The position numbers and the translations under genes were made by a program. Below the pieces are notes generated by a model that saw only the letters and a program-made list of their open reading frames with translations, made no database searches and had not been told where the DNA came from. Positions 11,561 through 23,437 of a DNA stretch of 23,437 bases are shown here, piece by piece (position 1 is the stretch's first letter; each line of letters starts with the position of its first letter). Location: positions 1 to 23,437 of the forward strand of contig JAGLBH010000007.1 in the NCBI GenBank assembly GCA_018260285.1, written 5' to 3'. Origin of the DNA: Arthrobacter sp. (GTDB lineage: Bacteria; Actinomycetota; Actinomycetes; Actinomycetales; Micrococcaceae).

Positions 11561-12697
11561 TCAGGCGCCTGCGGGGGCCTTGCTCTCTGCGGTGCTCTCG
11601 TCCGGAGCTGCGGCGAGGGCGGCTGCGGCCTCCTCCTCCGTGGGGAAGAGGGAGTCCCGAGCGTCGATGAGCGTCTTGCTGATGGCCCAGAGAACGGCCG
11701 TCATCGGCACGGCCACGATCGCCCCCGAGATGCCGCCCGAGTGGGCGCCGATCGCCAGCGCCACGAGGATCACAGCGCCGTGAATGCCGAGCGAGTGGCC
11801 CATGACGCGGGGCTGGAGAATGTGGTGCTCGATCTGGTTGACGATGACGACGACCGCGACGAGGACGAGCGCCGGAACCGGGCCAAGCGTCACGAGGGTG
11901 ACCAGGGTGGCGAAGAGGCCGGTCGTCAGGGCACCGAGGATCGGCACGAAGGCGCCGAAGAAAATGAGCACGCCGAGCGGAACCGCGAGCGGCGCCCCCA
12001 TGATGAGCATGGCGATGGTGTCCACGACGGCGGCGAAGAGCGCAATCGCCGTCGTCCCGCGGACGTATGCGCCGAGGACGCGCACGCTGTTGAGGCCGGC
12101 GCGGTCTGCCTCGGGGCGGTGGCGCACGGGGATGAAGCGCTTGATGAAGGACCACATGCGGTCGCCGTCGTAGAGGAAGAAGAAGAGGAGCACGAGGGTC
12201 AAGAGCGTGCCGGTGACGATCTCGCCCACGGTGGCCACGCCGTTGAGGGCCTTCTGGCTGAGCTCGCTCGTGCTGCCGGCGGCGGAGAGGTTCTTCTCCC
12301 ACTTGTCGAGGCTGTCCAGGCTGATGTTGATGCCGAGACGGGCCAGCCAGGCCTGCAAGCGGTTCGCGCCCTCGATGCCTCGCTGCATGAGCTCGCCGCT
12401 CTGGTGGTAGATGGACATGGTCACGAGTGCGAAGATGCCGATGAGTCCCAGCAGCGCCCCGGCAAAGGTGACGACGGTGGAGCCGGTGCGCCCCAGTCCG
12501 CGGCCGCGGAGGAACTTGAGCACCGGCTGCAGGGCGCACGTGATGATGACGGCAATGAGGATGGGAAGCGTCACGAGCGCCTGGGCCGTCAGCGCCCAGA
12601 CGAGAACGGCGATGCCCGCGCAGAAGATGAGGGACTGGAGCACGCGGGTGCTCGCGCGCCCGAAGCCGTCTGTCCAGAGGGATGCGGTCTTGTGCAT
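11561..12697 (-). CDS. AI-2E family transporter (UPF0118-type membrane protein)
   Basis: 378 residues with about eight membrane helices: two near 18-60, one near 70-95, then a soluble/amphipathic segment (100-150), then several in the second half. Family-typical features include LLFFFLYDGDRMWSFIKRFIP, VLGAYVRGTTAIALF, a GAFVPILGALTTGLFATLVTL loop and NQIEHHILQPRVMGHSLGIHGAVILVALAIGAHSGGISGAIVAVP. Members are annotated as AI-2 exporters after TqsA, but some act as Na+/H+ antiporters, so the substrate is open. The acidic/Ala C-terminal tail (SLFPTEEEAAAALAAAPDE) is cytoplasmic. AAAGG about 7 nt before the ATG is the SD. The upstream spacer is the long repeat array. Confidence 0.9.
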   Translation of the reverse strand: MHKTASLWTDGFGRASTRVLQSLIFCAGIAVLVWALTAQALVTLPILIAVIITCALQPVLKFLRGRGLGRTGSTVVTFAGALLGLIGIFALVTMSIYHQSGELMQRGIEGANRLQAWLARLGINISLDSLDKWEKNLSAAGSTSELSQKALNGVATVGEIVTGTLLTLVLLFFFLYDGDRMWSFIKRFIPVRHRPEADRAGLNSVRVLGAYVRGTTAIALFAAVVDTIAMLIMGAPLAVPLGVLIFFGAFVPILGALTTGLFATLVTLVTLGPVPALVLVAVVVIVNQIEHHILQPRVMGHSLGIHGAVILVALAIGAHSGGISGAIVAVPMTAVLWAISKTLIDARDSLFPTEEEAAAALAAAPDESTAESKAPAGA

Positions 12698-12790
12698 GGG
12701 GAAGCCTTTGCTGGGAGGGGGTTTGGTTCCAGTTTAGGTTGTCTAACTCATCGGGCGGAATTGGGGGGGTGCCGATAGCGGTGGGGCGTG

Positions 12791-12828
12791 GCGGGCGGTG
12801 TGGTGCGGGCGGTGTGGTGCGGGTGGGG
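12791..12828. repeat. 14-bp G-rich tandem repeat
   Basis: GCGGGCGGTGTGGT at 12791-12804 and 12805-12818, with a partial third copy from 12819. With the flanking G runs (seven G near 12763-12769, GGGG at 12783 and at 12824) the plus strand could form a G-quadruplex. Confidence 0.75.
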
Positions 12829-12906
12829 CCGCGGCTGCTCCCTCCGCTCAGTCGGCTCCCGCCGTCTGGTACTCCTCCGCCCAGCAGCCTTCCGGAACAC
12901 CCCCGG

Positions 12907-12949
12907 ATATTCCATAGACCCCCGTAATTTGCAGGGGTGTATGGAATAT
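12907..12949. repeat. Large stem-loop next to the hairpin array
   Basis: ATATTCCATAGACCCC (12907-12922) faces GGGGTGTATGGAATAT (12934-12949) with one mismatch in 16 bp, loop about 11 nt. The A/T-rich outer stem differs from the GC-rich surroundings. It lies 22 bp before the first unit of the 32-bp array. Confidence 0.8.
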
Positions 12950-12970
12950 GTGGGGGTGCATGGTCTTGCG

Positions 12971-13116
12971 CCCCCGAAAAGTCGGGGGTGCAGCGAGGTG
13001 TGCCCCCGAGAAACCGGGGGCGGATCCAGGCAGGCCCCCGAAAAGTCGGGGGCGGATCCAGGCGGGCCCCCGAGAAACCGGGGGCGGATCCAGGCAGGCC
13101 CCCGAAAAATTGGGGG
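12971..13116. repeat. Tandem hairpin array with an exact 32-bp period (five units)
   Basis: Five 18-nt hairpins start at 12971, 13003, 13035, 13067 and 13099, each 32 bp apart. Types alternate: CCCCCGAAAAGTCGGGGG (1st, 3rd), CCCCCGAGAAACCGGGGG (2nd, 4th), and a diverged CCCCCGAAAAATTGGGGG (5th). The 14-bp linkers are CGGATCCAGGCAGG or CGGATCCAGGCGGG in three of four cases, each with a GGATCC palindrome. The linkers are not unique, so this is not CRISPR. The period is not a multiple of 3, so it is not a coding repeat. It lies between the acyl-CoA ligase and AI-2E-type genes, both on the minus strand, so it could act as stacked terminators or as a structured RNA. Confidence 0.95.
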
Positions 13117-13121
13117 TGCAG

Positions 13122-13157
13122 CCGACGCAACCGACGCAGCCGACGCAGCCGACGCAA
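13122..13157. repeat. 9-bp tandem repeat CCGACGCAR
   Basis: Four exact-length units (ending A, G, G, A) run from 13122 to 13157, followed by a degraded copy CCGGTGCG. They sit between the hairpin array and the acyl-CoA ligase stop codon. Confidence 0.9.
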
Positions 13158-13187
13158 CCGGTGCGCCCCGCGCCCCGCAGCCGCCCC

Positions 13188-14681
13188 TCAGCGGCCCGAC
13201 TCCCGGACCTCCCGGCGCAGGATCTTCCCCGTGGGCCCCTTGGGCAGCGAGTCCATGATCCACACGACGCTCGGCTTCTTGTACGCGGCCAGGCGCTCGC
13301 CCACAAACGCCCGGATCTCCTCCGGCGTGGCCTCCGAGCCGGGCGCGAGGCTCACGGCCACCGCCACGTTCTCCCCGTACTTCTCGTCCGGAATGCCGAC
13401 GACGGCTGCCTCCCGCACATCCGGGTGCTCGTAGAGGACTTCCTCCACCTCGCGCGGGTAGACGTTGTACCCGCCGTGGATGATCATGTCCTTCTTGCGG
13501 TCCACGATCGTGAGGTAGTCCTCGTCGTCCATGCGGCCCAGGTCGCCCGTGCGGAACCAGCCGTCCGGGATCGCGGCGGCGGTGGCCTCGGGGTTCTCCC
13601 AGTAGCCGGCCATGACGTTCGCGCCGCGCACAGCCACCTCGCCCACCTCGCCGCGGGGCAGCTCGCGCCCGGCGTCGTCCACAACCCGCACCTCGACGTC
13701 GTCCACCGGAACGCCGACCGTTCCCGGGCGCCGCTCGCGCGTGGGCATGTTGAACGTGGCCACGGGGGAGGTCTCGGAGAGGCCGTAGCCCTCGAGGATC
13801 ATGCAGCCGAACTCGGTCTCGAAGGCCTTCATGACCTCGATCGGCAGGGCCGAGCCGCCGGAGATGCAGGCCCTCAGCGCGGTGACGTCCGGCGTGCCGC
13901 CCTGGGCGTGTGCGGCTGCGAGCAGGCCCTGGTACATCGTGGGGACGCCCTCGAAGAGCGTGACCCGGTCCCGCGCAAGGATCTCGAGGGCCTTGTCCTG
14001 CGCGAACCTCGGCAGCAGCGTGAGCCGCGACCCCGTGATGACGCTCGCGTTGAGCCCGCACGTCAGCCCGAAGACGTGGAACAGCGGCAGGCAGCCCATG
14101 ACCACGTCCTCCGGGGTCAGGCTGAGAATGCGCCGCGCGGAGAGCTCGGCGTTGTGGAACATGTTGCGCTGCGTGAGCCGGGCGCCCTTGGGCCGGCCCG
14201 TGGTGCCGGAGGTGTAGAGGATCACGCAGTCGTCGTCGTCCGCCCGCGGGGCGGGGGCGAGGGGCGCGGGGGTGCGGTTCGCGAGGTGGCTCGCCAGTGC
14301 GTCCACCGCATGGACGACGACGCCGGAGGGCGCCCCGGCACGGACCTGATCGTCCATGCCGGCCAGCGCGAAGACGGCCCGTGCGCCGGAGTTCTCCAGG
14401 TGGTAGGCGACCTCGCGCTCGCGGAGGAGCGGATTCATGGGCACGGCCACGAGGCCCGCGAGCTGCAGCCCGTAGAAGTGCACGGCGAAGGCGGGGACGT
14501 TCGGGAGGACCAGCCCCACCCGATCGCCCGGGCGAAGGCCGGCGGCCTGGAGGTCCTCGGCGACGGCGCTGGCCATGCGGGCGAAGTCCCCGTAGGCCAG
14601 GGTGAAGTCGTCCAGGCTGAGCGCCACGGCGTCGGGGGTGCGCTCGGCGGTGGCGAGCAGGGCGTCGGCGAGCGTGGTCAT
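13188..14681 (-). CDS. Fatty-acyl-CoA ligase (AMP-binding, ANL superfamily)
   Basis: 497 residues. ATP-binding P-loop LYTSGTTGRPKG at 155-166, adenine-contact motif GYGLSETSP at 298-306, GWFRTGDLG at 374-382, hinge DRKKDMIIHGGYNVYPREVEE at 394-414, and catalytic Lys486 in PTGKILRR. It activates a carboxylic acid, most likely a medium or long-chain fatty acid, to acyl-AMP and then acyl-CoA in the cytoplasm. The length and the GGYNVYPREVEEVLYEHPDV block fit FadD-like long-chain ligases; chain-length preference is not deducible. GGAGG lies 4 nt before the ATG. It is divergent from the peptide ABC operon; the shared spacer holds a 10-bp direct repeat. Confidence 0.93.
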   Translation of the reverse strand: MTTLADALLATAERTPDAVALSLDDFTLAYGDFARMASAVAEDLQAAGLRPGDRVGLVLPNVPAFAVHFYGLQLAGLVAVPMNPLLREREVAYHLENSGARAVFALAGMDDQVRAGAPSGVVVHAVDALASHLANRTPAPLAPAPRADDDDCVILYTSGTTGRPKGARLTQRNMFHNAELSARRILSLTPEDVVMGCLPLFHVFGLTCGLNASVITGSRLTLLPRFAQDKALEILARDRVTLFEGVPTMYQGLLAAAHAQGGTPDVTALRACISGGSALPIEVMKAFETEFGCMILEGYGLSETSPVATFNMPTRERRPGTVGVPVDDVEVRVVDDAGRELPRGEVGEVAVRGANVMAGYWENPEATAAAIPDGWFRTGDLGRMDDEDYLTIVDRKKDMIIHGGYNVYPREVEEVLYEHPDVREAAVVGIPDEKYGENVAVAVSLAPGSEATPEEIRAFVGERLAAYKKPSVVWIMDSLPKGPTGKILRREVRESGR

Positions 14682-22718: not shown

Positions 22719-23018
22719 GAGGGTGCCTTTCGGGCGGTGGGAGGTCAGACAGGGGCGGCGGATGGCGCCTGCTTCACACGCAGGCGCGGCATCAGGCACG
22801 GATTCTCTCTGGTTGAGGCGCGCATTGCGCAGCCGGCCTCCTGACGCCCTCTCGGGCTGTTCGCACCGCAGCTCGGCGTTCCGAACGCTCAGTGCCACGA
22901 AAAGTTTCCGTCTGCACCGTAGCACAGCGGGGGCGGACGACGACGGCGGGGCCGCGAACGTCAGGCAGAAAGTGTACAAACGTCCCATCATGAAGCGTCA
23001 ATAAAGGGATAAATTGTG
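22719..23018. promoter_or_regulatory. Divergent spacer between the FBP and AlbA_2 genes
   Basis: No gene is seen in about 300 bp. It contains a perfect 8-bp hairpin GCGCCTGC-TTCACAC-GCAGGCGC (22765-22787), which would lie in the FBP leader. A possible extended -10 for the FBP gene on the minus strand is TGCTACGGT (22916-22924). Two GTGTACAA copies occur at 22972-22979 and 23016-23023, 44 bp apart. Confidence 0.45.
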
Positions 23019-23026
23019 TACAATTT
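23011..23026 (+). promoter_or_regulatory. Leaderless promoter and overlapping palindrome of the AlbA_2 gene
   Basis: TACAAT at 23019-23024 is a -10 whose expected +1 is the A of the ATG at 23031; no SD is present. It is embedded in the palindrome AAATTG-TGTA-CAATTT (23011-23026), so a protein bound there would block transcription. Confidence 0.6.
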
Positions 23027-23030
23027 GTTC

Positions 23031-23437
23031 ATGACTATGGACACTCGTCTTCTTGCGCAGACCATCAGTGACTTGAGAGCGAGGGGCGGAGACACCCTGG
23101 ATGTTGAGGCAAAGAGGGCGACGGGGGGAACCCCGGACTTGAAGCCCACGCTCTGTGCGTTTGGAAACTTGCCCTCCGGGGGAGTCATCATTTTAGGGCT
23201 GGATGAAGACGATAACTTTCGAACAGTGGGTGTCCACAACGTTCCCTTGGCTGAGCAGGCAGTTGCGTCTCAGGCCCGCAAAGGGGTAGTGCCTCCTGTC
23301 CAGGTGGAGTTCACCGCGACGCCCTTTGAAGGGGAGACGCTTCTGGTCGTCCAAGTTATGCCTTTGCCTTCGGCCGCGAGACCGTGTTTCACCAAGGGCA
23401 AAGCCTATCTGCGCCAGAGCGACGGTGATTATGAGAT
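23031..23437 (+). CDS. Schlafen/AlbA_2-domain protein, 5' part only
   Basis: About 135 residues are visible before the window ends. After MTMDTRLLAQTISDLRARGGD comes the AlbA_2 pattern: LDVEAKRATGGTPDLKPTLCAFGNLPSGGVIILGLDEDDNFRTVGVHN, with the E-x-K of the putative nuclease core and the GGxIILGxD strand, then QAVASQARKGVVPPVQVEFTATPFEGETLLVVQV and RPCFTKGKAYLRQSDGDYE (the Y-x-R-x-G/S-x block). AlbA_2 proteins bind nucleic acid; bacterial forms act as regulators or in defence and RNA cleavage, and often have a C-terminal winged helix that would lie outside this window. The gene is divergent from the FBP gene. A specific function cannot be assigned. Confidence 0.85.
   Translation, partial: MTMDTRLLAQTISDLRARGGDTLDVEAKRATGGTPDLKPTLCAFGNLPSGGVIILGLDEDDNFRTVGVHNVPLAEQAVASQARKGVVPPVQVEFTATPFEGETLLVVQVMPLPSAARPCFTKGKAYLRQSDGDYE

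Follow-up and report, generated by a model that had tools for sequence, protein, structure and literature searches.

What is the array of five short hairpins that lies between two genes of an Arthrobacter sp. contig, and to what kind of element does it belong? The array was noticed in a window of 23,437 nucleotides, by which we mean the whole stretch of DNA analysed. A sequence-only reading described it as five hairpins at an exact 32-bp period, of two alternating types, between two genes on the same strand. Our analysis confirms these points: the hairpins lie at the expected regular positions (Table 1), the two types alternate, and both neighbouring genes are on the minus strand. The same reading placed a GGATCC palindrome in the linkers, which holds for three of the four linkers and not for all. 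TRF reports the 32-bp period (score 189) together with a higher-order period of 64 bp (score 252). The latter stems from the alternation of the hairpins and suggests that the array grew through the duplication of blocks of two hairpins. The region 12890-13125 is markedly more stably folded than its shuffled versions, with z-scores of -9.6 on the plus strand and -8.2 on the minus strand.

Directly 5' of the array we observe a 67-nt imperfect palindrome that the first reading had overlooked and that we refer to as the head. It ends 9 bp ahead of hairpin 1 and is composed of four C/G-run half-sites, with two direct copies in each arm and the arms inverted around an AT-rich core. The half-site copies within an arm, TACACCCCCGG-like C-runs, are about 19 to 21 bp apart, and the heads of the window's genome are of the CTACACCCCCGG type. 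The small hairpins share the start and the end of the head (TGCACCCCCG...CGGGGGTGCAG), as if its middle were missing.

Table 1. Features of the hairpin array and its surroundings in the window, and DUF559-type genes found beside heads in related genomes (listed by locus and genome).
Feature	Position or locus	Strand	Evidence or remark
AI-2E transporter family gene	11561..12697	-	5' end toward element; PF01594 E 1.4e-55
Head, 67-nt imperfect palindrome	12895..12961	.	Fold; ungapped alignment with 36 other copies; model R1
Small hairpin 1	12971..12988	+	CCCCCGAAAAGTCGGGGG
Small hairpin 2	13003..13020	+	CCCCCGAGAAACCGGGGG
Small hairpin 3	13035..13052	+	Sequence identical to hairpin 1
Small hairpin 4	13067..13084	+	Sequence identical to hairpin 2
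Small hairpin 5	13099..13116	+	CCCCCGAAAAATTGGGGG
Four 14-bp linkers	12989-13002, 13021-13034, 13053-13066, 13085-13098	.	Stretch 12989..13098; GGATCC in the last three
AMP-binding acyl-CoA ligase gene	13188..14681	-	3' end ~72 bp from array; PF00501 E 5.6e-94
DUF559-type gene	L110 (G145)		Heads on both sides
DUF559-type gene	L138 (G320)		Heads on both sides
DUF559-type gene	L147 (sister G001)		Head ~50 bp past stop codon, second head beyond other genes
DUF559-type gene	L166 (G061)		Head <10 bp away
DUF559-type gene	L113 (G370)		Frame-broken copy

The head is dispersed through the assembly from which the window derives (G000; 1.98 Mb in 395 contigs, 82% complete). R1, a covariance model of the head built from 37 copies, yields 88 matches in G000, corresponding to 44 places found on both strands (full length in 42 cases), and a DNA search with the array region returns 43 matches. 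Other copies, on which the first reading had made its claim depend, are thus present in G000 as these 44 head places; arrays of this sequence are absent from relatives. The window and 37 stretches around matches contain 38 heads, one of them cut by Ns, and 133 small hairpins by strict criteria. All 35 clusters checked lie between genes, as called by a simple custom codon-usage caller. The proposal of an amplified repeat is therefore borne out, and the array is, as had been stated, neither protein nor CRISPR, with intergenic clusters and with linkers that are too short and partly repeated. When five clusters are added to the 35, 28 of the 40 have a 3' end as their nearest gene end and 12 have a gene start, with gaps of up to hundreds of bp. 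The flanking genes of these 40 clusters are tandem in 20 cases, convergent in eight and divergent in two; the other ten are one-sided, mostly through contig ends. From this dispersal we infer that the element is mobile.

At five loci (L028, L037, L050, L051 and L053), two or three heads lie within a few hundred bp of each other and some of their arrays are near-identical, which corresponds to local duplication of the whole element. A phage or plasmid origin was considered and rejected: the array sequence has no match in viral contigs (exact pattern) or in plasmids (blastn), and protein P0090 has no phage match. A scan of GTDB 220, in which G000 itself was possibly not included, gave two matches to the exact head pattern, in a Saprospiraceae and an Acaryochloris assembly, and these are taken as chance.

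The small hairpins almost always point outward from the head. In the window and the 37 stretches, 61 hairpins to the right of a head have the '+' orientation, two the '-' orientation, and two are undecided; to the left, 52 are '-' and two are '+'. Neighbouring hairpins have the same orientation in 84 of 89 pairs. The distance between these neighbours (less than 70 bp) is 32 bp in 59 pairs, 31 bp in 26, 42 bp in three and 62 bp in one, and a more inclusive count among strict hairpins brings in four further pairs, at 63 bp. The 42-bp spacing occurs as three successive steps, each with a linker 10 bp longer, in a single array (L049, 2970-3117; G000:C306).

Linkers measure 13 or 14 bp in 85 of the 89 cases, and the identity of their cores is 34% from one array to another and 52% within an array. 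For the hairpins, the corresponding identities are 84% and 86%. The contrast between 84% and 34% indicates that the hairpins and their spacing are kept while the linkers drift. Conservation of the loop letters (A 127, G 112, A 127 and A 121 of 131 hairpins) nearly reaches that of the stem. Three helical turns at 10.5 bp amount to 31.5 bp, and at this pitch the mean spacing is 0.18 bp off a whole number of turns. This phase is suggestive only, since narrow distributions always give a high vector length (0.960 at 10.0 and 0.961 at 10.5 bp per turn), and it rests on few independent events because spacings are inherited by duplication.

The array is not due to chance: the two-hairpin pattern has 55 matches in G000 (reversed control, 0) and none in the 394 other genomes of the family, that is, it occurs in 1 of 395. 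In the sister species G001 (98% complete, in a single contig), the half-site has a dialect form of its own, GTTTGCCCCC. This sequence is present 32 times in G001 (against 3 for the reversed control), once in G000 (control also 1), not at all in G002 (same genus, 99% complete), twice in G104 and nine times in G145 (control, 2). The heads of G001 have the same length and layout as those of G000, and outward arrays of the arm G-run are visible by eye in several of them (L131, L143, L144 and L151). A scan of G001 with a loose motif gave 47 gaps below 60 bp, of 19 bp in 26 cases, 21 bp in six, 18 bp in four, 17 bp in two, and 11, 15, 27, 28, 30, 31, 34, 41 and 53 bp once each; the motif has 184 matches in shuffled loci, and single gaps may be chance. 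The main spacing of 19 bp is 2 bp under two turns, which counts against a helical phase. In two of the ten G001 stretches fetched for the motif (L148 and L152), it lies outside any palindrome. A DNA uptake sequence was rejected, since the half-site of G001 occurs only 32 times, mostly clustered at palindromes, and not hundreds of times.

R1 itself finds five places in G001 and, at E 0.001, no head in G002. Within the family, 58 of 395 genomes have a match at E 0.01, G000 included, and 26 of 395 at E 1e-4; an order-level control at E 1e-4 gives matches in 6 of 396 genomes, including two family members. The stronger family matches are palindromes of 66 to 73 nt with different stem sequences; among the weaker matches are also shorter hairpins, of which some look like ordinary terminators (L083 and L084). 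As R1 selects for C-runs and a stem, we do not claim homology of the heads beyond the genus. Heads of G000 and G001 have few neighbours in common: comparison of 32 flanking proteins of G001 with 69 of G000 revealed one common gene at 60% identity and two more at 27-29%. The ligase gene of the window has an orthologue in G001 whose 3' end, judged by eye, is not accompanied by an array.

Stacked hairpins between genes could act as RNA, and the sequence-only reading had named a multi-step terminator and a structured small RNA among its candidates. Neither is supported in G000. The region 12690-13200 contains no intrinsic terminator (stem-loop followed by a T run; 0 sites) and no sigma-70-type promoter, and the best Rfam matches reach 18-19 bits against cut-offs of 70-100. 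The arrays show no transcription orientation, with 19 sense and 17 antisense to the gene. Compensatory changes in heads or small hairpins of G000 do not exceed those in shuffled controls, and several head pairs are mostly broken (columns 20-48 are unpaired in 24 of 37 copies and columns 23-45 in 31 of 37). Together with the conserved loops, these observations favour a DNA site over an RNA structure. We therefore reject a terminator or small RNA for G000, and retain RNA function as a rival because the heads of relatives covary and lie close to stop codons. In this form the element would be a bidirectional transcription terminator or a protector of mRNA 3' ends, acting past stop codons. The preference for gene 3' ends speaks for it, being seen not only in G000 but also in all 16 clusters of G001 and in 72 of 81 heads examined in relatives (17 of them from G001; a subset of all matches). 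So does the strong stem covariation in 12 heads of relatives (several of them the same locus from related species), where both partners have changed in 15 pairs, compared with 9.3 (sd 1.4) in shuffles, and 93.9% of the cells are paired. However, covariation beyond shuffles is not found in G000, a T run is not found in 12690-13200, the 12 clusters nearest to a gene start and the long gaps fit poorly, and a separate, ordinary-looking terminator hairpin is seen by eye beside the head at L127 and L128 (G001) and at L132 (G145). We regard this explanation as unlikely.

The array could also be bound by a protein of the host chromosome without being mobile itself, in the way that gyrase or IHF bind the BIMEs of E. 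coli. A spacing near whole helical turns, the conserved loop letters and the position at gene 3' ends would all suit such a role, but the species dialects and the scarcity of common neighbours point to turnover and not to fixed sites, and we consider it rather doubtful. Alternatively, the arrays might be a neutral satellite, functionless products of slippage on a palindrome. The 64-bp higher-order repeat, the number of units (mostly 1 to 8 per cluster) and the restriction of arrays of this sequence to G000 among 395 family genomes would suit such a process. Slippage alone does not readily account for hairpins that stay so alike between arrays as the linker cores diverge, nor for the nearly constant linker length, making this explanation improbable. 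The reading as a dispersed palindromic DNA element, in contrast, is one that we hold with some assurance: the array is quite probably part of an element similar to REP.

Among known repeats, CRISPR arrays are accompanied by cas genes and have longer repeats, between which lie unique spacers of about 30 bp; a CRISPR array was rejected here, as the palindromes are 18 bp long and the linkers are 13-14 bp and partly repeated. No cas family was found among 14 distinct proteins of the window, nine of which were scanned with NCBIfam and seven with Pfam. Palindromic MITEs and foldback elements are, like the present element, small, non-coding, inverted-repeat and dispersed between genes, but the element has outward arrays and is without transposase-matching terminal repeats or a demonstrated target duplication. 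The dRS3/RS mosaic repeats of Neisseria likewise combine short palindromes and spacers in intergenic arrays, and differ in that the element described here has 31/32-bp spacing and a polarity centred on the head.

The closest known system is that of REP sequences and BIMEs with their RAYT transposases (PMC2817692, PMC3733652). In the main texts of these two papers, Actinobacteria are not named among REP hosts and the word itself is absent. The element resembles REP/BIME in consisting of dispersed, extragenic, imperfect palindromes that are present in many copies, form regular clusters, are species-specific and lie preferentially near gene 3' ends. In related bacteria, the likeness extends to an enzyme gene with palindromes on its flanks and to additional copies of that dialect at other genomic sites. 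There are also clear differences. Most REP families carry a GTAG (or CGTC) tag at one end of the palindrome in over 90% of cases, according to the survey text (PMC2817692, PMC3733652), whereas no such tag is conserved here: among 37 aligned heads, nine end in GTAG, nine begin with CTAC, none begins with GTAG, and one holds CGTC. The units of the element point one way from the head, while those of REP/BIME alternate in orientation, and the head is 67 nt long with two half-sites per arm. Furthermore, the gene adjacent to the palindromes is AbiEi/DUF559-like and not a Y1 transposase. A search for the latter (PF01797) was negative in all three genus genomes, G000, G001 and G002 (82, 98 and 99% complete), and positive in 5 of 14 controls. 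Lacking the Y1 transposase, the GTAG tag and alternating units, the element does not belong to the REP class itself.

Genes located between heads in relatives include some that encode an AbiEi_4 winged helix joined to a DUF559 part. A profile built from the proteins of L110, L138 and L147 and applied at E 0.001 to the loci fetched for heads retrieves these three together with L166 and L113, giving five loci in five genomes and four genera (Table 1). The curated Pfam cut-offs of both AbiEi_4 and DUF559 are exceeded by the G320 protein (L138) alone. The L110 protein is below the AbiEi_4 cut-off, and the near-identical P0001 is below those of DUF559 and MTES_1575. The proteins of L147, L166 and L113 match no Pfam family at E 0.01, and their membership is based on the profile and on the 24 to 46% identity seen in alignments. 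A second profile gave weak extra matches at L159, L162 and L165 (E about 0.004) and at the control L174 (E 0.007), which were not counted. Two of the five genes had escaped the gene caller and came to light in ORF listings and tblastn searches. Proteins that are 50-65% identical to that of G145 are labelled as coming from Rothia, so that group g3 is probably Rothia and the family Micrococcaceae. In G001, the DUF559-type gene of L147 adjoins a palindrome of its own genome's dialect.

In an alignment of 36 homologues, E201, D233, E244 and D246 (numbering of the first sequence) are invariant, as expected of a PD-(D/E)XK nuclease. A DUF559 protein of Caulobacter has been assigned to this superfamily (PMC12907096). 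In the titles and abstract openings of the open-access papers searched, we found no description of DUF559 or AbiEi paired with palindromes or inverted repeats. In G000, 42 stretches amounting to 197,884 of 1.98 million bases of the 82% complete assembly contain no DUF559-type gene.

The pairing of palindromes with such genes was examined in further sequences. Four tblastn searches of a plasmid collection provided eleven distinct genes (15 matches, of which four duplicates were dropped), and two more DUF559-type genes are contained in forty control stretches (799 kb). A palindrome was counted if it scored at least 14 and lay within 200 bp of the gene, a rule that was settled after the first eight genes. 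By this rule, 7 of 13 DUF559/AbiEi genes have a palindrome at either end, compared with 84 of 428 control genes (p 0.0075). Palindromes at both ends are found for 4 of 13 (L192, L200, L213 and L217) and for 4 of 428 control genes (p 3e-5), one of these four control genes lying next to the L192 gene and having a palindrome in common with it. Both genes from the control stretches have palindromes at both ends. For the genes of the plasmid collection alone, the counts are 5 of 11 for either end (p 0.051) and 2 of 11 for both ends (p 0.008). The remaining 6 of the 13 have no flanking palindrome by the rule. Among the last five genes, only that of Collinsella (L222) is positive, at one end, and a second palindrome with the same motif lies 262 bp upstream. 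L223, where the gene belongs to a usual AbiE pair together with an AbiEii gene, is not a DUF559 case.

In three of the four two-sided cases, the sequences on both sides are alike (55/59 at L192, 45/57 and 55/64 at the others); this does not apply to L200. The genome of Arthrobacter sp. StoSoilB13 has one palindrome dialect at 38 places and another at 10, perhaps representing about 19 and 5 loci, as a palindrome can match on both strands. The second dialect flanks the L213 gene, and the first looks similar to the palindrome next to the L215 gene when compared by eye. The L217 palindrome occurs at 20 places in eight records, all from Tsukamurella and one of them under an annotated gene, and the Collinsella palindrome matched its own record only. 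The palindromes that flank AbiEi/DUF559 (Vsr-like) genes look like a REP-RAYT arrangement with a different enzyme.

These observations lead to a model in which the head provides four C-run half-sites, and the small 18-nt palindromes would represent the ends of the head without its middle, repeated outward. As 31.5 bp make three turns of 10.5 bp, a protein may bind the half-sites along a single face of the helix. The 64-bp higher-order unit suggests that arrays could grow by tandem duplication while being kept in phase. The palindromes would be copied and dispersed by a cognate DNA-cutting protein, and the most likely disperser may be the AbiEi-winged-helix/DUF559 (Vsr-like) nuclease, whose genes are palindrome-flanked in the sister species and in other Actinomycetota. 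That the head and array together form one copy of a non-autonomous, dispersed, palindromic REP/BIME-like element, spread by such a cognate protein, is the interpretation towards which we lean. We are more hesitant to name a DUF559-type nuclease as its partner in the window's species, putting this at somewhat under an even chance because no gene of this type is present in the 198 kb examined from G000.

REP-type repeats have been tied to a single enzyme class, the Y1 transposases, and the consulted text of two surveys names no actinobacterial hosts (PMC2817692, PMC3733652). We tentatively propose that Actinomycetota may possess a second, independent system of this kind, in which an AbiEi-winged-helix/DUF559 (Vsr-like PD-(D/E)XK) nuclease would bind and cut the species-specific palindromes flanking its own gene and spread non-autonomous copies, the head and array of the window being a BIME-like product. 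If another nuclease family does keep palindromes of its own, the genes annotated as 'DUF559' and 'AbiEi antitoxin domain' in Actinomycetota would gain a testable role, and phased outward arrays would offer a natural read-out of repeat growth.

Several other arrangements were observed around heads. At L103, L066 and L136 (G104 and G020), heads lie on both sides of a FAD-oxidoreductase/Rieske gene, apparently at the same place in two g19 genomes, and at L114 (G286) head-model matches flank a stretch with an HSDR_N-domain gene. In G001, two near-identical elements are located 1.3 kb apart around the frame of a PadR-family regulator (L144; G001:C1:527900-531100). ABC-transporter and alcohol-dehydrogenase genes recur beside heads and were set aside as large families. 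In the window, TRF detects a 9-bp tandem repeat (GCAGCCGAC, 4.8 copies) at 13118-13160, abutting the end of the hairpin array, and a perfect 14-bp tandem repeat of 2.4 copies at 12791-12823, which also lies between the two neighbouring genes, upstream of the one for the AI-2E transporter. At the end of the contig, a gene with a Schlafen/AlbA_2 domain begins (23016-23435).
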